This document shows, in pieces, positions 4,586 through 27,814 of a DNA stretch of 27,814 nucleotides. Within the stretch, counting starts at the first letter, position 1, and each line of letters starts with the position of its first letter. The position numbers and the translations under genes are program-made. The stretch is taken from positions 1 to 27,814 of the IMG/VR virus record IMGVR_UViG_3300017737_000064, one strand, 5' to 3'. This DNA comes from a virus. Below the pieces are notes generated by a model that was not told where the DNA came from, ran no database searches, and was given only the letters and a program-made list of their open reading frames with translations.

Positions 4586-5368
4586 ATGCAAACAGTATCA
4601 AGGTATTTAATAACCAATCTGGTAAACGCCACTATAAGTGGTTATCACGGAAGGAACTCTAAGGTGTACGATCGCAGACTAAGAATATTCAAAGGAGCAT
4701 CTAATCCTATAACTTTTACGTTCAAAAACGAGGACCAAAAAGCTCAAACTATCACAAGCAAAACTTATGAGTTTAATTTAATTGATACAGAAAGTCATGA
4801 ATCTGTTTTAACTAGAAATCTAACTGTACTGGATGATGGAAGTACTCAATCATCTAAAGGACAAGCATCAGTTACTATCACTGAAGGTGATCTTCTAACG
4901 TTAGATGCAAAATTTTACAACTATGCAATTAGAGAAGTAAAAAGCGACAACTCACGTGAGGTAACATATACTGACACAGGATATAATGCTTCTGGTACTG
5001 TAGAAGTATCTGGTGAAGCATTTCCAAGTTTTATGGCTAGTACTGATGTTACAGGATTATTAACAGCATCAGGAACAAGAAAAACATCAAGTTCTGTTTA
5101 TGCATATCCAGGAAGAAATAGTAATTCTGCTTTGCATACTGTTGCAGTTTATGGTACAGGCTTCACTGGTAATTTTAAAATACAAGGCTCGTTGGTGACA
5201 ACACCCACAACAGATGCTGATTGGAGTACTATATCAAATAACTCCATCACAGACCTATCCGGTATTACCTACTATAACTTTACCGGTGTTTACACTTATG
5301 TAAGATTCTCTTACGATAATGCATCTGGTAATGCTGGAACCGTTGACAAAATACTTTATAGACATTAA
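4586..5368 (+). CDS. Virion structural protein (tail/neck or fibre-associated)
   Basis: 260 residues, rich in Thr, Ser, Gly and Asn, and beta-strand-like throughout with no cysteine. The first half (FKNEDQKAQTITSKTYEFNLID) resembles beta-sandwich domains of phage baseplate or fibre proteins. The C-terminal half (FKIQGSLVTTPTTDADW, then YTYVRFSYDN and GTVDKILYRH) resembles repeated beta domains in marine T4-like virion proteins. The late box upstream supports a structural role. Its exact location in the particle cannot be read from the sequence. Confidence 0.65.
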   Translation: MQTVSRYLITNLVNATISGYHGRNSKVYDRRLRIFKGASNPITFTFKNEDQKAQTITSKTYEFNLIDTESHESVLTRNLTVLDDGSTQSSKGQASVTITEGDLLTLDAKFYNYAIREVKSDNSREVTYTDTGYNASGTVEVSGEAFPSFMASTDVTGLLTASGTRKTSSSVYAYPGRNSNSALHTVAVYGTGFTGNFKIQGSLVTTPTTDADWSTISNNSITDLSGITYYNFTGVYTYVRFSYDNASGNAGTVDKILYRH

Positions 5369-8686: not shown

Positions 8687-9889
8687 ATGAGAGATTTATC
8701 GAAAGACAAATATTTTTGTTATCATCCATTTGAGACATTGACAATAACAGCAGATGGTAATGCACAACCTTGTCCTGTGTGGAATATGTCTGATAAATTT
8801 CCCATAGCCGACCTCAATCAAAATGAAATTACCATAGACGATATATTCAATTCAGAGCCCCTCAAGAAGATGCGAGAACAGATGTCCAGCGGAGAGGTAG
8901 TGTCCGCCTGCAATTCTTGCCACAGGAGAGAACGTGTCAAGTTGGACAGCCAGAGATTGAGATACGGCAGGCGTAGATCCAAAAAAGAAACACACAGCCT
9001 GAAGCAGATAGAAATCAATTTCAGCAATCAGTGTAACCTGGCGTGTGCCATGTGTAATCACAATCATAGTTCTGGTTGGTATCAGCAGGAAAAATCTCTG
9101 CCCGAGTCTCTGAGGAAAGACATGGATCTCAACAAACACTGGCCTTCCAAACCCTACAAGTATTTTTCGTTATCCAAAAAATTTGTTGACAGTATAGTGG
9201 ATCGTTTAGACACACTAGAAGTATTAATGATCAAGGGCGGCGAGCCGTTGTACGATAAAAACTGTTTGAATCTACTTAACCGTATTAGTGAAATCAAACC
9301 AGATCTAAAGATAGTGTTGGTCAGCAACATAACACACATACCTCAAAAAACTCTGGACACCCTATCAAAACTTACCAACGTGGAGTTGAACATCAGCATA
9401 GACGGTACAGGCAAAATATACGAATGGATCAGGGGATATTCATTTGACAAGATAGTGAGCAACTATAAAAAAATTAGTGAATTAAAACTAAATGCTGTGT
9501 ATGTAAACGTCACTGTCAGTATCTACAATGTGTTCAATGTTGTTGACACAATAAAATATTTCAAGGACCTATCACCCAACAACTACGGCGGCAGTTTTAA
9601 CTTTGTGTGGGAACCTTTTATGTCTGCATTGACTTTGTTACCGGATACTCATAAAGATAGAATCATTAACGAAATCGTTCCGGAATTGAAAGAACTCGGT
9701 TGTGTTCCGGATGACCAAATTGATTCATACGAAAATTACGTTTCCAAAAAATATGATAATCTTCAAAGTGCTTTGGTAACAACAATGGATAAAACTCAAA
9801 AAGTTTTTCGAGATTATACCAATTGGCTAAACACAATTAGAGGTATACAAATACAAGACGAAGCAAGTTATTTGAAAGAATTAATGTAA
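8687..9889 (+). CDS. Radical SAM protein with N-terminal SPASM/twitch-like cysteine module
   Basis: 400 residues. Radical SAM enzymes use a 4Fe-4S cluster and S-adenosylmethionine to start radical chemistry. The core motif CNLACAMC (Cys 116, 120, 123) is followed by IKGGEPLYD (GGEP motif, about 182-190) and LNISIDGTG. Ahead of the core sits a cysteine module (Cys 11, 29, 75, 78; CNSCHRRE), like the twitch/SPASM auxiliary-cluster domain but placed N-terminally. Its stop overlaps the next ATG (TAATG), so it is coupled to the aminotransferase-like gene. The first two thirds are G+C-richer than the last third, which hints at mosaicism. The substrate is unknown. Confidence 0.85.
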   Translation: MRDLSKDKYFCYHPFETLTITADGNAQPCPVWNMSDKFPIADLNQNEITIDDIFNSEPLKKMREQMSSGEVVSACNSCHRRERVKLDSQRLRYGRRRSKKETHSLKQIEINFSNQCNLACAMCNHNHSSGWYQQEKSLPESLRKDMDLNKHWPSKPYKYFSLSKKFVDSIVDRLDTLEVLMIKGGEPLYDKNCLNLLNRISEIKPDLKIVLVSNITHIPQKTLDTLSKLTNVELNISIDGTGKIYEWIRGYSFDKIVSNYKKISELKLNAVYVNVTVSIYNVFNVVDTIKYFKDLSPNNYGGSFNFVWEPFMSALTLLPDTHKDRIINEIVPELKELGCVPDDQIDSYENYVSKKYDNLQSALVTTMDKTQKVFRDYTNWLNTIRGIQIQDEASYLKELM

Positions 9890-10767
9890 TGGATATTGAA
9901 AAATTAGAATCGTTGATAGATAGAAATGCAAAAAGGAAACGTCCTATGTATGATCAAGAGATGCGTACATATCTAAAAACAATCGACTACTCTTGGAATT
10001 ACCCGATAGATCATTATGTTCAAACATTCACTGAATGGTTAACATCTCACAAAACTAATAAATTAATTAACTTGGATGCATTTCCGGACAGACGAATCAT
10101 ACTAGGTGTCACGCAGGCCATCAATGATCTGTATATGATGTATCCTAATCGAGTTGTAATACTCGATGGCGAATATTTTTATCATGATCAATTGTTCCCT
10201 GATGTAAAAGTGAGGACGCTGGAAACTTTAACCAACGGTGATGTGCTGTTAATCTCAATGCCTTTCTGTGGAGAGAACTACGGAGTACATCCTAAGATGT
10301 CCGAGATACTGCAAAAATGTTTAGATGAAAATATTCCTGTACACATTGATGCGGCATGGTATCCTTGTAGCAGAGGAATAACTTTTGATTTAGATCATCC
10401 TGCAATACAGTCAGTCAGTTGTAGTCTAACCAAAGCATATGGCATAAGTGAACATCGTTCGGGAGTGAGATATTCTAGAGCACCTATGCCAGGATATGTT
10501 ACTTGGATGACCGACAATGATTCTATTCCGTCAAAGCATAATTTTTTTACTGGAATAAAATTTATGCAGAAATTTGGTCCAGACTATTGGTGGAACAAAT
10601 ACGGAGAACACTATGATTTTATTTTAGAAAATTGTAAAAATTTAGCACCCAGTCCTGCAATTCACGTTGCATTTTCTACCGACGACAAAGGAAATGTTAT
10701 AAAAGCAGTGCCAATGAAGGAAGCATTGTTGTACGTAAATACGTACAGTAATGGAACAACAACCTAA
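9889..10767 (+). CDS. PLP-dependent aminotransferase-fold protein (fold type I)
   Basis: 292 residues. Landmarks follow the aspartate-aminotransferase fold: GVTQAINDLY (start of the PLP-binding domain), MPFCGENYGVHP (NP-G-like loop), HIDAAWYP with Asp154 for the pyridine nitrogen, and SCSLTKAYGISEHRSGVR with Lys182 as the candidate Schiff-base lysine and following arginines. It is shorter than typical 380-400-residue members because the C-terminal small domain is reduced, so it may be a decarboxylase, lyase or histidinol-phosphate-like branch rather than a standard transaminase. It overlaps the next radical SAM gene by 17 bases and follows another by TAATG, so the three probably act together. 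Confidence 0.7.
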   Translation: MDIEKLESLIDRNAKRKRPMYDQEMRTYLKTIDYSWNYPIDHYVQTFTEWLTSHKTNKLINLDAFPDRRIILGVTQAINDLYMMYPNRVVILDGEYFYHDQLFPDVKVRTLETLTNGDVLLISMPFCGENYGVHPKMSEILQKCLDENIPVHIDAAWYPCSRGITFDLDHPAIQSVSCSLTKAYGISEHRSGVRYSRAPMPGYVTWMTDNDSIPSKHNFFTGIKFMQKFGPDYWWNKYGEHYDFILENCKNLAPSPAIHVAFSTDDKGNVIKAVPMKEALLYVNTYSNGTTT

Positions 10768-11683
10768 AATAAATCGTATACAATGGCTGTTTGGAAATAT
10801 GTGCAACTATGATTGTTCGTATTGTCCAACAAATTTACATTCTAATGATTCCAAATTTGATGATCCTAATATAATTGCAAACGCAGTTCAATATACAGTT
10901 TCTTCTTTGAGAATGTTAGATAGAGAACCGTCCTTTGAATTTGTAGGAGGCGAGCCCACATTGAATCCAGGACTGTTATCCATTTGTCAACGTATGGGTA
11001 ATCAAAAATTAAGCAACAAGTTAACCACAAACGGAAGTGCCAGTATAGAATGGTGGGAAGAATATTACATTTATTTTTCACAAGTTGAAATAAGTTATCA
11101 CACAGAATTTGCAAATCTAGAACATATCGAAAAAGTAATTGATTTTTTGATTGAAAAAGAACTTGCAGTTAAAGTAATGGTCCATTGTACACACCTCGAT
11201 GAACAATGGAACAAAGCAATACACGTTTATCAAATACTTAAAAACAAAGGATACAAAACAGAATTAAAACTTTTGTTTTCAAACTTTACCAAAGGTTTTC
11301 AATTTTATCCTTACAAAACATATCAGTTAAAATATTATTTTGAAGAGAAAGGACAAGACTGGGATCCAGAACAAACAATGTATACCGGAAATTTAAAGTA
11401 CGATGGATACACTCACGCAAGGCATGATATGAATAGAGAATTTGTAGATAAAAAAGATGGAAGAATAAAAAACAACTGGAACTATAAAGGTTGGAGATGC
11501 AACGCCGGTGTTGATCAATTTGTTGTTGATAAAAGAGGAAACGTAAGACGTGGCTGGTGTGGACAAGGAGAAAGATTGGGAAACGTTCTTCTAAGAAATG
11601 TGGAATGGCATCAAAAGGCTATCAAATGTGATTTAGATGTGTGCCGGAATGGCTTCGACCAATTAGCGACCAAGTTTAAATAG
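10751..11683 (+). CDS. Radical SAM enzyme with C-terminal SPASM-like cluster
   Basis: 310 residues. The core motif CNYDCSYC uses Cys 18, 22 and 25. FVGGEPTLNP is at about 64-73 and LTTNGS at about 91-96. At the C-terminus Cys 250, 270, 293 and 298 (GWRC, RGWCGQG, KCDLDVC) could ligate an auxiliary Fe-S cluster, as in SPASM enzymes that modify peptides or sugars. It sits in an operon with a PLP enzyme upstream and a ferredoxin-NADP reductase 4 bases downstream. The substrate is unknown. Confidence 0.88.
   Translation: MEQQPKINRIQWLFGNMCNYDCSYCPTNLHSNDSKFDDPNIIANAVQYTVSSLRMLDREPSFEFVGGEPTLNPGLLSICQRMGNQKLSNKLTTNGSASIEWWEEYYIYFSQVEISYHTEFANLEHIEKVIDFLIEKELAVKVMVHCTHLDEQWNKAIHVYQILKNKGYKTELKLLFSNFTKGFQFYPYKTYQLKYYFEEKGQDWDPEQTMYTGNLKYDGYTHARHDMNREFVDKKDGRIKNNWNYKGWRCNAGVDQFVVDKRGNVRRGWCGQGERLGNVLLRNVEWHQKAIKCDLDVCRNGFDQLATKFK
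11675..11682 (+). promoter_or_regulatory. Late-type box before the reductase gene
   Basis: TTTAAATA lies 5 nt before ATG 11688 and overlaps the last codon and stop of the upstream radical SAM gene. It may allow separate late transcription of the reductase. Because it is partly coding sequence, chance cannot be excluded. Confidence 0.4.
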
Positions 11684-11687
11684 TCGT

Positions 11688-12416
11688 ATGCACAAAGAAA
11701 AAGTAATATCAATAAAACATTATTCAGACAAATTATTTTCATTTAAAACAACACGTAACGCAGGTTTGAGATTTGATGCTGGACAATTTACAATGATAGG
11801 ATTGGATAACAAAACTATGAGAGCATATTCTATAGTAAGTGGTCCAGGAGAAGACTATTTAGAATTTTTATCTATTGTTGTTCCAGATGGTCCATTAACA
11901 TCTAAACTAAAAGATATCAAGCAAGGTGACGAAGTTTTAATAGGACCTAAACCGGTTGGAACTCTACTTTGTGATTCATTAAAAAATGATACGACACTAT
12001 GGTTAATTGGTACAGGAACTGGAATAGCACCTTTTGTTAGTATTTGCAGAGATGCAGACACATATCTAAAATTTAAAAAAGTTATAGTGTGTCACACAGT
12101 TCGTACAGTAAAAGAACTTGCATACTATGATTATTTTTTTAATTTAGCCGTGCAAGAATTTATTCAGTATTATCCAACAGTGACCAGAGAAGAGTGGGTA
12201 AACAAAGGAAGGATCACTGATCATATTAAAACAGGAGAGGTATTTTCTAAACTAGAAGTGCCACCAATGACTCCAGAGAATGATTCTGTGATGTTATGCG
12301 GATCACCTGACTTTAATTCGGAGATGATGGAAATGTTAAAAGAAAACGGTTGGCAAGGTGGCAGTTTAAGTCAGCAAGGAAACTTTGTTTACGAGAAAGC
12401 ATTTGTTGATAAGTAA
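11688..12416 (+). CDS. fpr: Ferredoxin/flavodoxin-NADP+ reductase
   Basis: 242 residues, matching bacterial Fpr (about 248-258). It moves electrons between NADPH and ferredoxin or flavodoxin through FAD. Visible landmarks are FDAGQFTMIG, MRAYSIVSG (the RxYS FAD-binding motif, 45-48), FLSIVVPDGPLTSKL, IGTGTGIAPF (NADP(H)-binding loop, about 107-116), IVCHTVRT, MLCGSPDFN, and a C-terminal GNFVYEKAFVDK. That tail resembles Azotobacter/Rhodobacter-type reductases ending in FVEK. It lies directly behind a radical SAM gene, and radical SAM clusters need reduction, so an electron-supply role is a natural inference. No ferredoxin or flavodoxin gene is seen in the window. Confidence 0.9.
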   Translation: MHKEKVISIKHYSDKLFSFKTTRNAGLRFDAGQFTMIGLDNKTMRAYSIVSGPGEDYLEFLSIVVPDGPLTSKLKDIKQGDEVLIGPKPVGTLLCDSLKNDTTLWLIGTGTGIAPFVSICRDADTYLKFKKVIVCHTVRTVKELAYYDYFFNLAVQEFIQYYPTVTREEWVNKGRITDHIKTGEVFSKLEVPPMTPENDSVMLCGSPDFNSEMMEMLKENGWQGGSLSQQGNFVYEKAFVDK

Positions 12417-14318: not shown

Positions 14319-14398
14319 GACACCCTCCTTTTTAAGTTAGGTGCGTTCCTTCGGCATAATGCCTACTTCCGTCCTTTAAAGGATGAACGTTAAAAAAT

Positions 14399-14567: not shown

Positions 14568-14643
14568 GCCGCTTTAGCTCAGTTGGTAGAGCAACTGATT
14601 TGTAATCAGTAGGTCCGCGGTTCGAATCCGTGAAGCGGCACCA
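14568..14643 (+). tRNA. tRNA-Thr (TGT)
   Basis: Full cloverleaf: acceptor GCCGCTT/AAGCGGC, anticodon arm CTGAT-TTGTAAT-ATCAG type with anticodon TGT, T-loop GTTCGAATC, discriminator A and genomically encoded CCA. It reads ACA, an A-ending codon frequent in AT-rich phage genes. Confidence 0.95.
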
Positions 14644-14711
14644 TCATTACATAGTAACGCACCTAATTAGGTATTTTTGGCAATATTGGTAATTTTGGAG
14701 TATTTTGGTTT

Positions 14712-14801
14712 GGAAGGATGGCAGAGTGGTTGAATGCACCGGTCTTGAAAACCGGCAAAGGGGCAACTCTTTCCTGAGTTCAAATCTCAGTCCTTCCGCC
14801 A
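14712..14801 (+). tRNA. tRNA-Ser (TGA)
   Basis: 90 nt with the long variable arm typical of class II tRNAs. Acceptor GGAAGGA/TCCTTCC, anticodon loop CTTGAAA (TGA), discriminator G and encoded CCA. It reads UCA. Confidence 0.94.
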
Positions 14802-14806
14802 CTCAC

Positions 14807-14882
14807 GGAGCATTAGTGTAGCGGTTAACACGTCGCCCTGTCACGGCGAAGACCACGGGTTCGATTCCCGTATGCTCCGCCA
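14807..14882 (+). tRNA. tRNA-Asp (GTC)
   Basis: Acceptor GGAGCAT/ATGCTCC, anticodon loop CTGTCAC (GTC), T-loop GTTCGATTC, discriminator G and encoded CCA. Confidence 0.95.
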
Positions 14883-14885
14883 CGT

Positions 14886-14960
14886 GGTCCCTTCGTCTAT
14901 CGGTTAGGACAGCGGGTTTTCATCTCGCAAAGAGGAGTTCGATTCTCCTAGGGACTACCA
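14886..14960 (+). tRNA. tRNA-Glu (TTC)
   Basis: Acceptor GGTCCCT/AGGGACT with a G-U first pair, anticodon loop TTTTCAT (TTC), T-arm GGAG-TTCGATT-CTCC, discriminator A and encoded CCA. It starts 3 nt after the CCA of tRNA-Asp. Confidence 0.93.
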
Positions 14961-14977
14961 GACTATAATTACGTGTG

Positions 14978-15053
14978 GGGGGATTAGCTCATCTGGGAGA
15001 GCGCCTGATTTGCATTCAGGAGGTGGCTGGTTCGAGTCCAGTATCCTCCACCA
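14978..15053 (+). tRNA. tRNA-Ala (TGC)
   Basis: Acceptor GGGGGAT/ATCCTCC with one G-U pair, anticodon stem CCTGA/TCAGG with loop TTTGCAT (TGC), T-loop GTTCGAGTC, discriminator A and encoded CCA. The late promoter of the next gene begins 10 nt after its CCA. Confidence 0.95.
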
Positions 15054-15076: not shown

Positions 15077-16255
15077 ATGAAAGATACCTATTGTACATTT
15101 CCGTTCAAACAAGTTGCTGTTAAAAAAATAAAGAGGGGAAAAATTATTCAGTATGCACCTTGTTGTCATATAAAGCCATCTGCAAGATTACAGATGCCTA
15201 ATGATGATCCTACACCCGATGAGTTATTCAATAGTCCAGAAATGAAACAATTAAGAAGTGATTTACTAGCAGGCGTTAAAAATCCAACTTGCGATGCTTG
15301 TTGGAAAAGAGAAGCAAGAGGACAACGTTCATTTAGAATGACAACACCTTATCAACCAGAAGCAGAGTTGAACACACTCGATCTAACAATGAGTAATTCT
15401 TGCAACCTAATGTGTAGAATGTGTACTCCTACAAAATCAAATAAATTAATGATTGATCAAAAGAAATGGAAAGATGCAAGTGTAGATTTTGAATGGATGA
15501 AACCATTCTGGTGGGATAGCACTCCTCATTATACAGAGAAAACTAAATTCTACGAATACCTAATGGCCCACACCGAACAGTTCACAACCTTAAAAATTAT
15601 AGGTGGTGAACCTTTTTATGACAAGCACTGTTTGGCTGTATATGAAAAATATGTAGAGATGGGGACTGCAAAGAATACAGTACTATGGACCAACACAAAC
15701 GGATTATGTTTTTCCGATAAAGTCTGTAATATGATTAACGAATTTAAAACTGCAAAGGTTACAATATCTTGCGATGGCACAGGAAAAGTTTATGACTATG
15801 TGCGACACGGTTCTACTTGGCAAGAGTTTCAGGATAATATGAACAACTATAAAAAATTAGTCAAGAATAGGAAAAAGAAAGTAACAGTAGCATTTACCAT
15901 GCAAGTTTATAATCTATCAAATATGCAGGATACTTGCGAATACGTTGATAGTATTGACGGAGAACTTTTACCTTATCCTGTATTTCCAGATACCAGAGGA
16001 ATATATCCATGGTTCTTGCCTGTTGATTATCTTAAAAAATGTAAAGAAAAAGTAACACATCAAAGCGAGGCAGGAGACGAAATGAGGAGATACTTTGATT
16101 ATTGGATCAAAGAGAACAAAGAAGATCTAACTTTAGTTAAACGTGAAATTGTTTTATTTGATAAATCTCGAGATCAAAATTATGCAGATTATTTAGATCC
16201 TGAACTAACGGCTTTACTGAACTCTGTAGATATAAATGACACTGCCGCCGCATAG
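15077..16255 (+). CDS. Radical SAM protein with N-terminal SPASM/twitch-like module
   Basis: 392 residues, a paralogue in layout of the gene at 8687. The N-terminal cysteine module has Cys 6, 29/30, 72 and 75 (YAPCCH, TCDACWKRE). The radical SAM motif CNLMCRMC uses Cys 109, 113 and 116. IIGGEPFYD and ISCDGTGKVYDYVR match the corresponding parts of the 8687 protein. It overlaps the following 2OG-oxygenase-like gene by about 20 bases if that gene starts at 16236. The near-leaderless late promoter suggests expression with virion genes. Substrate unknown. Confidence 0.87.
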   Translation: MKDTYCTFPFKQVAVKKIKRGKIIQYAPCCHIKPSARLQMPNDDPTPDELFNSPEMKQLRSDLLAGVKNPTCDACWKREARGQRSFRMTTPYQPEAELNTLDLTMSNSCNLMCRMCTPTKSNKLMIDQKKWKDASVDFEWMKPFWWDSTPHYTEKTKFYEYLMAHTEQFTTLKIIGGEPFYDKHCLAVYEKYVEMGTAKNTVLWTNTNGLCFSDKVCNMINEFKTAKVTISCDGTGKVYDYVRHGSTWQEFQDNMNNYKKLVKNRKKKVTVAFTMQVYNLSNMQDTCEYVDSIDGELLPYPVFPDTRGIYPWFLPVDYLKKCKEKVTHQSEAGDEMRRYFDYWIKENKEDLTLVKREIVLFDKSRDQNYADYLDPELTALLNSVDINDTAAA

Positions 16256-17102
16256 ATCTGCCAAGCACTACAAACTTATGAAAGATAATAAGAGCAGTAG
16301 CTCTGTTATCAATAATTTTTTAAACACAGAAGAAATACAATACTTTTACAAATGGTGGCAGGATCATAGGCACAGAGAAAAAGCCAAAGGTGATTACAGC
16401 CAAATGGAGAACGAGGGACAAGTGCCTGATGGAACTTCTCTTGGTAATTTAAGATATTCATACGCATACGAAGAACTAAAAGAAATTTTACAACCTAAAA
16501 TTCAAAAAGCATTGGGTACAGATAATTTTCGAGCATTACCCGGAAAGTTTTATTATGTTCCTAAAGATTATGTATGGGACACTGTGCATACTGATGTTTC
16601 ATTGTATGAAAGTAAAAGAGCAGAGGACCTGAAAGAGATCTGGGAAGAACTTGGATGTTCTGAAGAGATAGAACGTGCATCAAGAGAAGGATGTCCTTCG
16701 GCCAATGGAAAAGAATTTAGAGACTGGGCAACTGAAAATCCGCAGTATGTCATTCCATCTTGGAAAACAATCGTTGTTCCTTTATGGTGTCCTGGAGAAG
16801 CAACCACAGTTACATTTGATCAATATGATTACGGTGGAGAAAAGTTAACCGGTTGGTACAATTGGAACAGTAAGAATATCGAATATATGACCGACAAGAT
16901 GTCAATTACACAAGAACAGTTTGATAGTTGTTTAAGACACATTAGATATGGCAAAAAGAAACTACACGGGTTGAGTATTGAAAATGTTTTTAATTGGAAA
17001 GTTGGTTCTGCATTCATGTTTGATTCTGCACAACTACATACCAGCGGTTATTGTAGTGACGGCAAAATAGGATTCACAATGTGGGTTGCCCATAATGAGT
17101 AA
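16236..17102 (+). CDS. 2-oxoglutarate/Fe(II)-oxygenase-like protein
   Basis: 288 residues from ATG 16236, or 274 from ATG 16278 (MKDNKSSSSVINNF); neither start has a clear Shine-Dalgarno. A double-stranded beta-helix fold is suggested by the metal triad pattern VHTD (His118, Asp120) and the distal His268 in FDSAQLHTSG, with a basic residue after it as candidate 2-oxoglutarate anchor. The N-terminal SVINNFLNTEEIQYFYKWW is the usual opening of prolyl-4-hydroxylase-like phage oxygenases. These hydroxylate proteins, nucleobases or small molecules. Its pairing with a radical SAM gene suggests sequential modification of one substrate (inference). Confidence 0.65.
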   Translation: MTLPPHRSAKHYKLMKDNKSSSSVINNFLNTEEIQYFYKWWQDHRHREKAKGDYSQMENEGQVPDGTSLGNLRYSYAYEELKEILQPKIQKALGTDNFRALPGKFYYVPKDYVWDTVHTDVSLYESKRAEDLKEIWEELGCSEEIERASREGCPSANGKEFRDWATENPQYVIPSWKTIVVPLWCPGEATTVTFDQYDYGGEKLTGWYNWNSKNIEYMTDKMSITQEQFDSCLRHIRYGKKKLHGLSIENVFNWKVGSAFMFDSAQLHTSGYCSDGKIGFTMWVAHNE

Positions 17103-20714: not shown

Positions 20715-21314
20715 TTACTTGTTATCCTCTGCTCTCGAAGATACAATTTTATCTGCTAGTCCGTAAGCCACTGCTTCTTCCGAAGTCATAAACTTATCTC
20801 TTTCCATATCGTCTTTTAACTTATCGTATGGTTGTCCTGTCGTCTTCTCGTAAATTTTTGTAAGCTCTTTCTTCCATCTTAACAGTTCGTTCGCTTGTAT
20901 CTCAACATCGGTTGCTTGTCCTCTAGCACCACCCAAAGGTTGATGTATCATATGTCTCGAATGAGGTAACATCAATCTTTTTCCTTTTGTGCCTGCTGAT
21001 GCAAGTAATGATCCCATTGAGCAGGCTTGTCCTGTTACGATAGTCTGTATAGGACAGTTGACATATTGCATAGTATCATAAATGGCCATACCTGCTGTAA
21101 CTAATCCTCCTGGGGAGTTTATGTATATTGTAATATCTTTTGATGGAGATTGTGATTCTAAAAATAATAATTGGGCACAAAGAACTGATGAAGTGTGTTC
21201 ACCAATCGGTCCTTCAAGCATTATAATTCTGTCTTTCAGCAAACGAGAAAATATATCGTAACTTCTTTCTCCTTTACTAGTTTGTTCTATAACTATTGGT
21301 ACAAGTGAGCTCAT
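20715..21314 (-). CDS. clpP: ATP-dependent Clp protease proteolytic subunit ClpP
   Basis: 199 residues, full length. The catalytic triad is intact: Ser99 in [10 protein letters not shown], His124 in HMIHQP, Asp173 in MERDKFM. The oxyanion region SPGG (68-70) is present. It forms a tetradecameric chamber fed by a Clp/AAA+ unfoldase. No ClpX or ClpA is in the window, so it presumably uses the host unfoldase. A perfect -35 (TTGACA) lies upstream, suggesting early expression by host polymerase. In phages ClpP-like enzymes can be prohead proteases, but this sequence is much closer to true bacterial ClpP. Confidence 0.95.
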
Positions 21315-21320
21315 AAATTA

Positions 21321-21349
21321 ATATTACTTTAAATTGTTATCATTGTCAA
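21321..21349 (-). promoter_or_regulatory. Sigma70-like promoter for clpP
   Basis: Minus strand: TTGACA (21344-21349), 17-nt spacer, TAATAT (21321-21326). It has a perfect -35 and a weaker -10, immediately upstream of the clpP ATG. The transcript would start inside or at the very beginning of clpP unless an alternative -10 is used. Confidence 0.5.
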
Positions 21350-21352
21350 CCA

Positions 21353-22108
21353 CTACCAAGATGTCCATTTGACATTAAAGTCTTTACCACGTAGACCTTT
21401 TTCATGATATACGTAACAACGTGAATGGTGTTGCTTGTCTGTTTCATCTTTTACATCAAAGTGTCTAATCCAATCTTTATCTAGGTTGGTCCAAACTCCT
21501 TGATTAAAAACTTTCAATAATGCCTTTTGGTCTAAACCAATTTGGAAATGATCGTTGTTTGCTGTGTGTACAATGTCTTCAGCGACATTTCGAATTTTAG
21601 ATAAATCGTTTGGATGTAAATGGCAGAACGTTGCCATTATTCTACCTCCGTGTTTTGAGAATGCTGTTTGTTTGAATAACTCTTTTCTGGATCTCCTGTT
21701 CGGTACTCGTTGTGCATATGCATCAACATCGGCAACAATTATTGATTGGTCGGATCTCATATTGTATCCTAACAAAACAAAACGTTGGCATTGTGTATAA
21801 CTTTCGTATATCCATTTTTTTATAACACTATCTTCGTTGGTTCTCTCCGTTGCTATTCGAAATTTATCTACTGCCACTTTCCACTCGTAATCGTTTGTGT
21901 TGCAGTGGGTATGAGATATTTGTTTACTCTCCAACCATTTGAGAGATTGTTCACTAGGATCAATTATGTGTATGTGTACAGGCAACTGCCATAGTTCAGT
22001 GAACGTATCGTAAAATCTTTTGAAATAAACTTTAAAGTATCTTTCGTCGCAAGAACAAAGTATAAATCTTTTTTCGCTTGGCCAACTACCTTTTACATTA
22101 TTAAACAT
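21353..22108 (-). CDS. GT-A-fold glycosyltransferase-like protein
   Basis: 251 residues. The likely nucleotide-sugar/metal motif is IIVADVDAYAQR (DxD at Asp127 and Asp129), preceded by VLLGYNMRSD and followed downstream by HFQIGLDQKALLKVF, which resembles the D-Q acceptor region of GT-A enzymes. The N-terminal FILCSCDERYFKVYFKRF fits the first Rossmann-like strand. It probably glycosylates host surface polymer or a phage component; donor and acceptor are unknown. The ATG follows a 24-codon leader ORF by only 4 nt and has no Shine-Dalgarno of its own, so translation is probably coupled to it. Confidence 0.55.
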   Translation of the reverse strand: MFNNVKGSWPSEKRFILCSCDERYFKVYFKRFYDTFTELWQLPVHIHIIDPSEQSLKWLESKQISHTHCNTNDYEWKVAVDKFRIATERTNEDSVIKKWIYESYTQCQRFVLLGYNMRSDQSIIVADVDAYAQRVPNRRSRKELFKQTAFSKHGGRIMATFCHLHPNDLSKIRNVAEDIVHTANNDHFQIGLDQKALLKVFNQGVWTNLDKDWIRHFDVKDETDKQHHSRCYVYHEKGLRGKDFNVKWTSW

Positions 22109-22112
22109 ATTT

Positions 22113-22187
22113 TTATATACCCGGTATTGCTGAAGACAACACCGGGTGGTTCTTCAGACCGTTTAGTGCATCCACCTGCTCTTGCAT
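22113..22187 (-). CDS. 24-codon leader ORF
   Basis: ATG 22187 with GGAG 8 nt upstream. It encodes MQEQVDALNGLKNHPVLSSA plus IPGI and stops 4 nt before the glycosyltransferase-like gene. It sits on a transcript from a near-perfect sigma70-like promoter. The good ribosome site and codon choice suggest it is translated. Part of its sequence forms two interleaved inverted repeats (see the pseudoknot entry). Confidence 0.5.
   Translation of the reverse strand: MQEQVDALNGLKNHPVLSSAIPGI
22119..22157 (-). promoter_or_regulatory. Potential H-type pseudoknot in leader RNA
   Basis: Two 7-bp inverted repeats interleave: CTGAAGA (22130-22136) with TCTTCAG (22151-22157), and ACCCGGT (22119-22125) with ACCGGGT (22141-22147). 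As RNA these can form either of two hairpins or both as a pseudoknot. The 3' stem lies about 10 nt before the AUG of the glycosyltransferase-like gene. It could be a translational switch coupled to the leader ORF. It does not match a riboswitch class I can name. Confidence 0.5.
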
Positions 22188-22260
22188 ACAGGAAACTCCA
22201 GTTGATTTGACTCTCGCCTGACTCAATGGGTGTCTATACTTTCACCATGGATACATTGAT

Positions 22261-22289
22261 ATTATATGATGATTTGATGTTTAGGTCAA
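22261..22289 (-). promoter_or_regulatory. Sigma70-like promoter for the leader/glycosyltransferase unit
   Basis: Minus strand: TTGACC (22284-22289), exactly 17 nt, TATAAT (22261-22266). The predicted start near 22254 gives a leader of about 145 nt before the glycosyltransferase-like gene. Confidence 0.75.
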
Positions 22290-22310
22290 ATAGTTTTAGG
22301 ATATGAGGAA

Positions 22311-22361
22311 CGCACAAGGATAGAGTCCTTGCGTATTAGTTTTAATACTATTTTGTATTAA
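22311..22361. terminator. Tandem hairpins after the 112-aa gene, possible terminator
   Basis: CAAGGA/TCCTTG (22315-22331), with CG-rich flanks, and TTAATAC/GTATTAA (22342-22361) overlapping the stop codon of the minus-strand gene. Neither is followed by a long T-tract, so Rho-independent termination is uncertain. Confidence 0.35.
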
Positions 22362-22696
22362 CTACCAAAACTAACACTGTTAACTTCAGTTGCTGATCCT
22401 GTCGCTATTGTGATTACATTTGCTTCACAATGAGCGATTCTTTTTGCTTTGATGTCAGCCAGTGCCGCATCTGAGTCAAAAGCATCTTTAACTGATTGGT
22501 TAACCCAACGTTGTGTTACTCTGATTTGATTCTCACTTAGGTATTCCACTTTTCTTTTCATTTGTCCATTGTCAAGATAAGTGTTTGCCATGTGAGTTGC
22601 AACTGATTCAGCCGCTGTTTTACCTGCTTGAGTGTCAGAAAACCAACCTTTGGAGTTGTTTGGTCTTGTATAAGTTTTTGCTACTTCTATTGCCAT
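22358..22696 (-). CDS. Hypothetical protein, probably late/virion-associated
   Basis: 112 residues: MAIEVAKTYTRPNNSKGWFS, an Ala/Thr-rich helical middle (AGKTAAESVATHMANTYLDN), a possible beta segment (NQIRVTQRWVNQSV) and a Ser/Thr/Val-rich end. A Shine-Dalgarno AAAAGGA is about 11 nt upstream, and two tandem late promoter boxes lie at 22722-22749. I do not recognise the family. Late promoters and composition suggest a particle component or an assembly factor. Confidence 0.6.
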   Translation of the reverse strand: MAIEVAKTYTRPNNSKGWFSDTQAGKTAAESVATHMANTYLDNGQMKRKVEYLSENQIRVTQRWVNQSVKDAFDSDAALADIKAKRIAHCEANVITIATGSATEVNSVSFGS

Positions 22697-22721
22697 AGTT
22701 TTTAGTTCCTTTTAATGCTTG

Positions 22722-22749
22722 TATTTATTAAAACACAGTTGTATTTATA
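22722..22749 (-). promoter_or_regulatory. Tandem T4-like late promoters
   Basis: Minus strand: perfect TATAAATA (22742-22749) and AATAAATA (22722-22729), 20 bp apart and both followed by C. They lead into the 112-aa gene, which has a normal leader and Shine-Dalgarno. Confidence 0.7.
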
Positions 22750-22778
22750 TGTTGTGCTAGGGGTTCGTATGATATGTG

Positions 22779-24659
22779 TTATTTGTCTTTGTTGACTTCT
22801 TCAAAATCTGCGTCAACGACATTGTCGTCCTTGGGTTTTTCTTCTGCTGGCTTTTGCTCTTGCTGTTCTTTGTATACTGCTTCTCCCAATTTCATAGCCG
22901 ATTCTGTTAGATCCTTGATCTTATTTTTGATTGCATCAGTATCTGATGTCTTCAATGCTTCTTTTAGAGTATTGACATCCGCTTCAATCTTGGCTTTGTC
23001 TTCCGCTGACAGTTTATCACCGTGTTCTTTCAACTGCTTGTCCAACTGGTGTGCTAGGGTATCTCCCTGATTCTTTACATCAACTGCTTCTCTCTTTTGT
23101 TTGTCCGCTTCTTTGTTTGCTTCTGCTTCTTTTACCATCTTATCTATCTCGTCATCTGATAGTCCGCCTGATGCTTGTATAGTAATTTTTTGTTCTTTGC
23201 CTGTGCCTTTGTCTTTTGCACTTACACTGACAATACCATTTGCGTCTATGTCAAACGCAACCTCTATCTGAGGTATTCCACGTGGAGCAGGTGCGATGCC
23301 TTCTAGATTGAAGTTACCCAGTGCCTTGTTGTCCGCCGCCATCTCTCTTTCACCTTGTACAATTCTGATTGTGACTGCCGCTTGATTGTCTTCTGCTGTT
23401 GAGAATACTTGGCTTTTCTTTGTGGGAATGGTTGTGTTCTTTTCAATAAGTTTGGTTGCGACACCACCTAGTGTTTCAATGCCCAATGATAAAGGAGTTA
23501 CATCTAACAGTAATACATCTTTGACGTCACCTTGTAGTACTCCGGCCTGTATCGCGGCTCCGATCGCCACAACTTCGTCTGGGTTAACTCCTGTGTGAGG
23601 TTCCTTGCCAAAGAACTCTTTGACTGTTTCCGTAACTTTCGGCATACGAGTCATACCACCAACAAGCACTATCTCTGTTATGTCGCTGGCCTGTAGTTCG
23701 GCATCCTTCAATGCTTGTTTGCAAGGTGCCAGTGTTTTCATTACTAGGTCCTCGACCAGTGCTTCTAGTTTTGCTCTAGTCATCTTGATGTTCAAATGCT
23801 TTGGTCCTGTTTTGTCAGCAGTGATGAAAGGTAGATTGATCTCTGTCTGTGCCGCAGATGATAGTTCTATCTTGGCCTTCTCCGCCGCTTCCTTGACCCT
23901 CTGCAGAGCAAGGTTGTCCGATTTTAGATCGACTCCGTTGTCTTTCTTGAATTCTGTTAATAGGTAATCAACAATAACATTGTCAAAGTCTTCACCACCC
24001 AATGATGTGTCACCGTTTGTGGACTTAACTTCAAACACTCCGTCACCTATTTCTAATATGGATATGTCAAACGTACCACCACCCAGGTCGTACACTGCAA
24101 CTGTGCCTGACTTCTTCTTGTCAAGGCCGTATGCGAGAGCGGCCGCTGTTGGTTCGTTCACTATACGTTCAACTTCAAGTCCTGCGATCTTACCCGCGTC
24201 CTTGGTCGCTTGTCGCTGTGAGTCATTGAAATACGCAGGCACAGTGATGACCGCTTTGGTCACTGCTTGTCCTAGATACTTCTCTGCTGTCTCTTTCATC
24301 TTCTGTAAAACGAATGCGGATATCTGCGATGGCGAATACTTCTCGCCTTTTGCTTCTACCCAAGCGTCTCCGTTGTCTGCTTTGACTATCTTGAAAGGGG
24401 AAGTCAAGATGTCTTTCTGCACAGAGTCGCCGTCAAATTTTCTACCTATCAATCTCTTGGCCGCGAATATCGTGTTTGTGGGATTGGTCACTGCGTTCCT
24501 CTTGGCAGGCATCCCCACCAGTTGCTCGTCTCCGAAACCCACCACTGATGGTGTGGTCCTGTTTCCTTCTGCGTTCTCTATAACCTTCGCTCCGCTACCT
24601 TCCATGACAGAAACGCAAGAGTTGGTTGTTCCTAAATCTATTCCTATAATCTTTGTCAT
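22779..24659 (-). CDS. dnaK: Chaperone DnaK (Hsp70), full length
   Basis: 626 residues, only slightly shorter than bacterial DnaK (about 638). The nucleotide-binding domain shows [49 protein letters not shown] and LVGGMTRMP. The interdomain linker [13 protein letters not shown] and substrate-binding domain follow, then the helical lid and a canonical acidic C-terminus near [11 protein letters not shown]. The tail resembles bacterial EEVxDD ends that contact co-chaperones. No dnaJ or grpE is in the window, so host co-chaperones would be needed. G+C is higher than in the replication genes, consistent with acquisition from a bacterium (inference). Confidence 0.97.
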
Positions 24660-24907: not shown

Positions 24908-24938
24908 TGATGTTTGGTAAAGTAATTTGGAAGTGTGT

Positions 24939-26147: not shown

Positions 26148-26213
26148 CTATAATAGTATGTCGAGTATCAACAGGGTGATCCATACTGCACCCACAACTT
26201 CTAATCCACTCAT
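26148..26213 (-). CDS. Possible 21-aa single-helix membrane peptide
   Basis: MSGLEVVGAVWITLLILDIL plus L, then a stop. AGGAGGAG precedes the ATG, and the start overlaps the AAA+ stop codon (ATGA). The strong Shine-Dalgarno and coupling argue for translation despite the size. Confidence 0.5.
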   Translation of the reverse strand: MSGLEVVGAVWITLLILDILL

Positions 26214-27268
26214 GTGTTTACTCCTCCTGGTCTCATACAGGTCTGAGAAGCCAATTGTTTATACTTGTCTGGTGCCATCTTCCAAAGGTCTGCTATCTTC
26301 AATACCATTCTCAATGATATCTCTCGTAGGTTGGCCTTGTTATCGAATACGAACTGCACCAGATCTGCCTGTGTCTCTTGGTCCATATTGTACTTGTCCA
26401 GCATACCTTGTCTGCATATCTGCTTGATCCTAAGCATACGATCTCGCATACTGTCAATGGTTAGATCCAAGTAATGACATCTAGATTGTAATGCCTCCAG
26501 GTGATCCCGCAACTTCTTGCTCTTGACATTGTCGAACTTCACATTGGTAATGAACACAACACCGCCATTGAACTCAAACGAATTGGGCACACCTTCATTC
26601 CGTAATGCACTGGACTCTGTGTTCCAATGCAGGCATCTCTTACGACCTGTGTCCAATGCCGCCTTGAGCAGGTTCAACGATAGGTCATCATACAGTATGG
26701 CATCACAGTCATCGAAGCATACCACATGGCCTGCGTCGGCGTGTTCATATAACTTCTTGTATAATCCCACGGCACTCATTGCACCCTTGACCACCTCAAA
26801 CTTCCGTCTGGATCCTGCTATGTCATCGAAGGTGCTATACTTCTCCAGGGTCGTTTCAACACCATAAGATTTACCAATACCGGGCGGTCCACTAACGATC
26901 ATCGCCCGGACCTTCTTCTGTGCCACTGCTTCGGTCATCTCATTCAGTATCTCGAATCGTGCTTCTATACGGCCGATCGCTTCTTCATCGGTCTCCGTCT
27001 GCTTGGGTTCCTGGGTAGCCCCACCTTTGAACTCGTCTCTGAATCGTATGTATTCGCCCTCATTAACTACCCTGATATCACCAATGCTACCCACATTGAT
27101 CCGCACCTTATCCAGGCCCTCGTAGTCGCTCATATCAGTCACAGCAACGGTGACGAATCCACCCGGCTTGCCTGCGAACTTCTGATAGTCTTTCACTATC
27201 GGAAATATACGACCTGACTGGTCCTTATTACGATAGGTTCCTTGTTCTATTTTAATGTATTTTTTCAA
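26210..27268 (-). CDS. AAA+ ATPase
   Basis: 352 residues starting at TTG 27268, chosen for the strong Shine-Dalgarno AGGGAGG just upstream. The N-terminal ~100 residues are a beta-rich domain (IFPIVKDYQKF, GGFVTVAVTD, KVRINVGSIGD). Then Walker A GPPGIGKS (127-134), Walker B VVCFDDCD (182-189), a sensor-1-like VVFITNVK and an arginine-rich region (DSMRDRMLRI). Similar stand-alone AAA+ proteins are common in marine T4-like phages and are mostly unassigned. It might remodel a protein or nucleic-acid complex. It has a sigma70-like promoter with an upstream repeat array, so it is probably early and tightly regulated. Confidence 0.8.
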   Translation of the reverse strand: MKKYIKIEQGTYRNKDQSGRIFPIVKDYQKFAGKPGGFVTVAVTDMSDYEGLDKVRINVGSIGDIRVVNEGEYIRFRDEFKGGATQEPKQTETDEEAIGRIEARFEILNEMTEAVAQKKVRAMIVSGPPGIGKSYGVETTLEKYSTFDDIAGSRRKFEVVKGAMSAVGLYKKLYEHADAGHVVCFDDCDAILYDDLSLNLLKAALDTGRKRCLHWNTESSALRNEGVPNSFEFNGGVVFITNVKFDNVKSKKLRDHLEALQSRCHYLDLTIDSMRDRMLRIKQICRQGMLDKYNMDQETQADLVQFVFDNKANLREISLRMVLKIADLWKMAPDKYKQLASQTCMRPGGVNT

Positions 27269-27294: not shown

Positions 27295-27322
27295 ATTATA
27301 GCATCATATTCGTATATGTCAA
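27295..27322 (-). promoter_or_regulatory. Sigma70-like promoter of the AAA+ gene
   Basis: Minus strand: TTGACA (27317-27322), 16 nt, TATAAT (27295-27300), preceded by ATGC as at the dnaK promoter. Both hexamers match the consensus perfectly. Confidence 0.85.
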
Positions 27323-27330
27323 ATGGTTGA

Positions 27331-27470
27331 GATTGGTAAAGATTGGTAAGAACCTTACCAACGATAGATCCACATTGATATCCTGGTAAAGATTGGTAAA
27401 ACGGTTCTGACTTGCCATGGAAGCGTACGGGTGATGAATATGGTTGGTAAGGTTTGGTAATGTCTGGTAA
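27331..27470. repeat. Phased TGGTAA repeat array (operator or origin candidate)
   Basis: (T/C)TGGTAA occurs at 27333, 27343, 27383, 27393, 27444, 27454 and 27464, plus one inverted copy at 27355-27361. Neighbours within each group are exactly 10 bp apart and the groups are about 50 bp apart, so most copies face the same side of the helix. The array begins about 10 bp upstream of the AAA+ -35 element. Confidence 0.8.
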
Positions 27471-27479
27471 ACACAATAC

Positions 27480-27537
27480 GAGCAGGCCATATTGTTTCAG
27501 ATCCTGCTCTGTCCCCTGCCTGGTCATCCGTACGGAT
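27480..27537. promoter_or_regulatory. Hairpin and 12-bp palindrome in the divergent control region
   Basis: GAGCAGG (27480-27486) pairs with CCTGCTC (27503-27509). ATCCGTACGGAT (27526-27537) is a perfect palindrome, a plausible dimeric-repressor site. Both lie between the repeat array and the rightward gene. Confidence 0.45.
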
Positions 27538-27601
27538 CGTGTCGCCCAAATTTGTAGGGCAAAGGGTATATTTTTGTTTCCAAAATCCTTAGGATGGGGT
27601 A

Positions 27602-27641
27602 CTATGCTAAAATGCTCCACCTCCGTAATCCAGGTTAAATA
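27602..27641 (+). promoter_or_regulatory. Two candidate promoters for the right-edge gene
   Basis: TATGCTAAAAT (27603-27613) is an extended -10 like those of the dnaK and AAA+ promoters but lacks a clear -35. GTTAAATA (27634-27641) lies 7 nt before ATG 27649, matching the late-type box-to-ATG pattern. Confidence 0.5.
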
Positions 27642-27648
27642 AACATAT

Positions 27649-27814
27649 ATGTCAAGCAACGATTTAGGACAAGACCCAGAACGATTCCGTAAGCCTCTAA
27701 TCCTCACACAAGAAGTGGAGCCAGAATTAAAGCATTCAGACCCAGTATCACCATCCGCCATATCACGACATCTAGCAGAATTAAAGGTAGGATTGTACGA
27801 CTCTCGCATATATA
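27649..27814 (+). CDS. Right-edge gene, truncated by window end
   Basis: Open from ATG 27649 to the last base (55 codons): MSSNDLGQDPERFRKPLILT, then EVEPELKHSDPVSPSAISRH and a Leu/Lys end. The late-type box 7 nt upstream supports this start. It is preferred over the antisense frame at 27252-27809, which reads as low-quality protein and crosses the AAA+ promoter and the repeats. The function cannot be judged from the N-terminus. Confidence 0.45.
   Translation, partial: MSSNDLGQDPERFRKPLILTQEVEPELKHSDPVSPSAISRHLAELKVGLYDSRIY

Follow-up and report, generated by a model that had tools for sequence, protein, structure and literature searches.

A phased repeat array beside a phrog_1250 gene, found in a 27.8-kb IMG/VR virus record (the whole of which is called the window here) that represents a fragment of an uncultured phage distantly related to PA5oct, is genuine and constitutes a control array specific to its lineage. 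With a probability of roughly 0.6, we consider it to be an element that controls transcription in a clade of PA5oct-related uncultured phages and that a predicted regulator would bind. The repeats are helically phased, they recur at one locus in related genomes, and their word, TTACCA, is associated with promoters in one direction.

The repeat array and its surroundings in the window

Eight copies of TGGTAA/TTACCA were located within 137 bp (27334-27470) and seven of them were co-oriented (Table 1). On the minus strand the word reads TTACCA and is directed toward a perfect sigma70-like promoter; the array lies upstream of this promoter, with 11 bp between the promoter and the nearest repeat. 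The copies form four pairs at exactly 10 bp, the starts of the groups are 50 and 61 bp apart, and the single inverted copy builds the dyad TTGGTAAG-AAC-CTTACCAA (27343-27361). The window was shuffled 300 times with dinucleotide composition preserved and the densest 143-bp cluster was scored; the maximum was four copies (in two shuffles) as compared to the eight observed, and each shuffle contained at most one 10-bp pair as compared to the four observed. Among the remaining 6-mers of the window none was as dense, the next cluster holding six copies. The window array is far beyond chance. These results bear out an earlier note on this DNA, which had described seven direct copies and one inverted copy of (T/C)TGGTAA, spaced 10 bp within groups and about 50 bp between them, as a helically phased array ending about 10 bp from a perfect sigma70-like promoter, here matching the consensus at 12/12 positions on the minus strand.

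Table 1. Features of the array region and of the dnaK promoter in the window.
Feature	Position	Strand	Basis or remark
TGGTAA copies	27334, 27344, 27384, 27394, 27445, 27455, 27465	+	Sequence
Repeat group 1: two TTACCA units, 10-bp step, closest to promoter	27334..27349	-	Sequence
Degenerate ninth unit TGGTTG, extends group 1	27324-27329		Sequence
Lone inverted TTACCA copy	27355..27360	+	Sequence
Repeat group 2: two TTACCA units, 10-bp step	27384..27399	-	Sequence
Repeat group 3: three TTACCA units, 10-bp step	27445..27470	-	Sequence
Perfect sigma70-like promoter TTGACA-16-TATAAT, TG before -10	27295..27322	-	12/12 consensus match
Gene for phrog_1250 AAA+ protein, T4 nrdC.10-like	26210..27268	-	TTG start at 27268 after GGGAGGA
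Right-hand gene, start; cut by contig end	27649..27814	+	~60 aa in relatives, apparently membrane-spanning
Hairpin GAGCAGG...CCTGCTC	27482..27511	.	Inner sequence (C/G)CATATTGTT(T/C)CAGAT conserved, hairpin not
Palindrome ATCCGTACGGAT	27526..27537	.	Kept only in part among relatives
Block AAAATCCTTAGGATGG...TATGCTAAAATGC: palindrome and extended -10	27582..27619	+	Conserved among relatives
Second perfect promoter TTGACA-16-TATAAT	24907-24880	-	Reads toward dnaK (22779-24659)
Single TTACCA box, 7 bp upstream of second perfect promoter	24915-24920	-	

The 27322-27295 promoter serves the phrog_1250 gene, whose product has T4 nrdC.10 and a PA5oct protein among its relatives. The array had been placed between divergent genes, and indeed the phrog_1250 gene runs leftward on the minus strand and another gene starts at 27649 on the plus strand, but this description is incomplete as the right-hand gene is cut by the contig end. 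The conserved block at 27582..27619 is the likely promoter of that gene. The palindrome and hairpin that were thought to strengthen the case for a control region both exist, but the hairpin adds no strength to it: in relatives its loop sequence is kept while the folding is no better than that of shuffles. A structured RNA at the array was rejected on the same folding result and for the lack of an Rfam match there, and a 186-aa minus-strand ORF across the array is unlikely to be a gene, since the corresponding sequence of relatives is full of stops.

Elsewhere in the window, a glutamine riboswitch aptamer (14340-14391, minus strand; RF01739, 64.8 bits) was found ahead of a 65-aa ORF, adjoining a cluster of five tRNAs (14568-15050). 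Putative radical-SAM-like proteins are clustered at 8687-12416 and 15077-17102 together with aminotransferase-like and ferredoxin-reductase-like proteins, as judged by eye from the translations, and the region 20715-24659 (minus strand) carries phage-borne ClpP and DnaK. A ClpP comparison across bacterial genomes gave no information on the host.

Recurrence of the array and of the TTACCA box in related phages

Relatives of the phrog_1250 protein are encoded at 16 viral loci, and most of the contigs concerned were read. The block AAAATCC(T/A)(T/A)AGGATGG...TATGCTAAAATGC, corresponding to window positions 27582-27619, was recognisable in eight of these records and in most cases preceded a gene whose product, of about 60 aa, is apparently membrane-spanning. 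In at least four other genomes (G004, G005, G006/G015 and G009) a dense (C/T)TACC(A/G) array is located upstream of the block, as in the window, at a distance of 100-450 bp, and units spaced by 10 bp are in these genomes almost confined to this locus. The arrays consist of groups of 2-4 units that are 40-75 bp apart, and the spacing of TTACCA pairs across the relatives peaks at 10 bp, with 10 pairs as compared to at most three at any other distance. The units keep the word but not the spacers, and between the near-identical strains G006 and G015 individual units have been gained and lost. Orientation is nearly uniform within each genome, whereas the absolute direction flips between genomes. 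In the window, G004 and G005 the units point away from the block (with one additional pair toward it in G005), and in G006, G015 and G009 they point toward it.

The earlier note had looked to close relatives that keep the flanking genes and lack the repeats as a sign against its proposal, and this was found in part, in that G008 and G010 have the conserved promoter block and no phased array. Most relatives have the phrog_1250 gene beyond the block, at a distance of 2-3.5 kb, and the window is the only case in which the phrog_1250 promoter abuts the array. The contigs of the two closest relatives, G011 and G012, break off within the gene and show no array on its other side, in agreement with the arrangement seen in the window. 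Ancestrally the array neighbours the side of the ~60-aa gene, and adjacency to phrog_1250 is an arrangement of the window only. A strong terminator-like hairpin with the conserved loop TTTCAACTCATTCAACTCG was also observed ahead of the phrog_1250 promoter region in the relatives L006/L007 (~4900-4990), L008 and L010.

When all 6-mers in the 36 nt preceding the perfect sigma70 promoters of the clade were ranked without bias, TTACCA was the most enriched. It was present at 8/17 perfect promoters (0.3 expected) and at 14/47 promoters with the -35 sequence TTGACN (0.83 expected), as compared to a single occurrence of TGGTAA in either set; the reverse complement was near expectation and the box has one orientation only. 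A control with the reversed pattern gave no matches versus 19 for the true pattern. TTACCA is in this clade a directional, sigma70-linked box enriched upstream of -35, at a distance of about 2-16 bp from it and without clear helical phase. Behind the boxed promoters are phrog_1250 in several relatives, hsp20-dnaK in G004 and G007, dnaK in the window and a number of genes with no assigned function; some of them are orthologues, which leaves roughly 6-7 independent promoter classes, and the chaperone genes carry the box at differing genomic positions.

A promoter box of the whole family was considered and discarded, since distant relatives (50-55% identity) had the box at 1/63 promoters and PA5oct showed no enrichment. 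The one-orientation pattern search had no match in Atu_ph07 or Cronobacter phage S13. In PA5oct (NC_071039) the region upstream of lncRNA004 likewise lies beside a phrog_1250 homologue, and positions 245999-246060 are the only place in that genome with three TTACCA/TGGTAA copies within 70-bp steps, but this cluster is not phased at 10 bp and may be a remnant or due to chance. The annotated lncRNA beside the homologue (L132 1370-1988, PA5oct 246116-246734) had no Rfam family match. The MIJ3 paper contains no promoter or origin data.

Likely mode of action

We infer from these patterns a binding protein that would assemble cooperatively, together with the sign and timing of the regulation it would exert. 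A sequence-specific DNA-binding protein, of phage or host origin, would recognise the 10-bp unit (C/T)TACC(A/G)nnCc, with one protomer per helical turn placed head-to-tail and hence on one face of the DNA, and would assemble cooperatively in groups of 2-4 units. The phasing, co-orientation and clustered groups fit such head-to-tail binding. The word lies upstream of -35 and so is not transcribed from that promoter, where it acts as DNA and not as RNA. Its placement ahead of an intact -35 speaks more for activation than for blocking, and the window array would most likely increase, and less likely repress, transcription of phrog_1250; a perfect promoter needs little help, however, so position does not settle the sign. 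On its other side, the array probably acts also on the conserved promoter with the extended -10, and the same protein probably uses the single TTACCA boxes at other strong promoters, including that of hsp20-dnaK. An operator bound cooperatively on one DNA face by a probably early regulator, as the earlier note had envisaged, gains support from the 10-bp phasing at the locus in relatives and from the directional box.

Similar layouts are known. The boxes bound by T4 MotA are a phage-wide word that marks a promoter class and replaces the -35; TTACCA also marks a promoter class, but it is found upstream of a -35 that is itself perfect. Sites of the OmpR/PhoB family (OmpR, CpxR, RstA) are short direct repeats about one helical turn apart, head-to-tail and upstream of sigma70 promoters. 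The window array likewise consists of direct repeats at 10-11 bp upstream of a promoter, and one pair (27386-27400) fits the CpxR site GTAAA-N5-GTAAA, whereas the conserved word of the array is TGGTA(A/G)/(C/T)TACCA and no Trans_reg_C regulator was found in 14 fragmentary phage contigs. BldC, lambda Xis and RdfS form head-to-tail winged-helix filaments with roles in transcription and recombination, and BldC occupies one DNA turn per protomer on the smeA promoter (PMC11963761). The array has the same one-turn steps, but the BldC repeats at whiI are 9 bp (PMC11963761) as compared to 10 bp here, and the 14 incomplete contigs held no small MerR-like/HTH_17 protein. Ribbon-helix-helix proteins were also absent from these contigs, and none of the known DNA-binder families was present among 53 proteins around the locus; the binder is possibly a host protein or a phage protein of an unrecognised type.

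The layout also occurs outside the clade. In the unrelated phage contig L058 (8701-8763, minus strand) three GTTACCACGR units stand in tandem at 10-bp steps and a sigma70 promoter follows 11 bp downstream, which is an independent instance of the same layout. In another group of viral contigs (L059, L068, L074, L083, L103 and L123) triple arrays resembling TTACCACATATTACCACNTTTTACCACA are shared among the members, in a similar intergenic context.

Competing explanations and significance

The main rival is an iteron-type replication origin, at which an initiator would occupy the phased units and open the DNA close by, possibly together with transcription from the neighbouring promoter. Phased direct repeats and several conserved elements in a noncoding stretch would suit such an origin, as would one array per genome fragment and the tolerance of inversion, and some triple TTACCA arrays with 10-bp steps in unrelated phages adjoin VapE-like, Prim-Pol, DUF5906 or DnaB genes, in a comparison where loci were picked for large neighbouring ORFs with ORF size uncontrolled. 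However, the word marks promoters elsewhere, two relatives have no array, and the primase and DnaB-like helicase genes of the window are ~20 kb off, the neighbours being phrog_1250 and a small gene. The GC-skew minimum of a joined relative was 15-20 kb away, which is a weak test as skew follows gene strand, and the iteron-like origin suggested in the earlier note thus gained no positive support. We regard it as rather unlikely.

An extension of transcriptional control, which we rate as unlikely, is a clade-specific takeover of transcription, where a phage protein or a phage-altered alpha subunit of RNA polymerase would read TTACCA upstream of strong sigma70 promoters, at flexible distances, and the phased array would be a nucleation or titration site switching a regulon that includes chaperone genes.

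A functionless array produced by chance or by mutational tandem expansion could account for the turnover of units between G006 and G015, for the two relatives without an array and for tandem TTACCA in unrelated contigs, but this is improbable given that the array recurs at the same locus with the word kept and the spacers not, and that TTACCA is associated with promoters.

Two further readings of the earlier note remained without specific support. A packaging start or genome-end signal was suggested by the fact that, of about 10 contigs that extend to the region, 6 terminate within ~0.8 kb of it, but the end points are scattered to either side, four contigs continue through the region without a break and no terminase gene was seen nearby; strains diverge at the region (G006 versus G015/G007), which explains the assembly breaks and, with the scattered ends, makes packaging very improbable. 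In plasmid centromeres, phased direct repeats are arranged in groups around a promoter, a layout that the array resembles, but a partition site of the parC/tubC type is scarcely credible, as single boxes occur at many further promoters, neither a ParM nor a TubZ-type gene was seen and the 14 contigs contained no ribbon-helix-helix (ParR-like) protein.

If transcriptional control by a TTACCA-binding protein is right, a first code would be available for the promoters of a group of uncultured jumbo-like phages, in which one word predicts the promoters of a regulon with phrog_1250 and chaperone genes among its members, and the array sequence would serve as bait for finding the regulator. The locus also offers a natural test of how phased arrays evolve, as orientation and copy number vary between relatives while the 10-bp phase stays.
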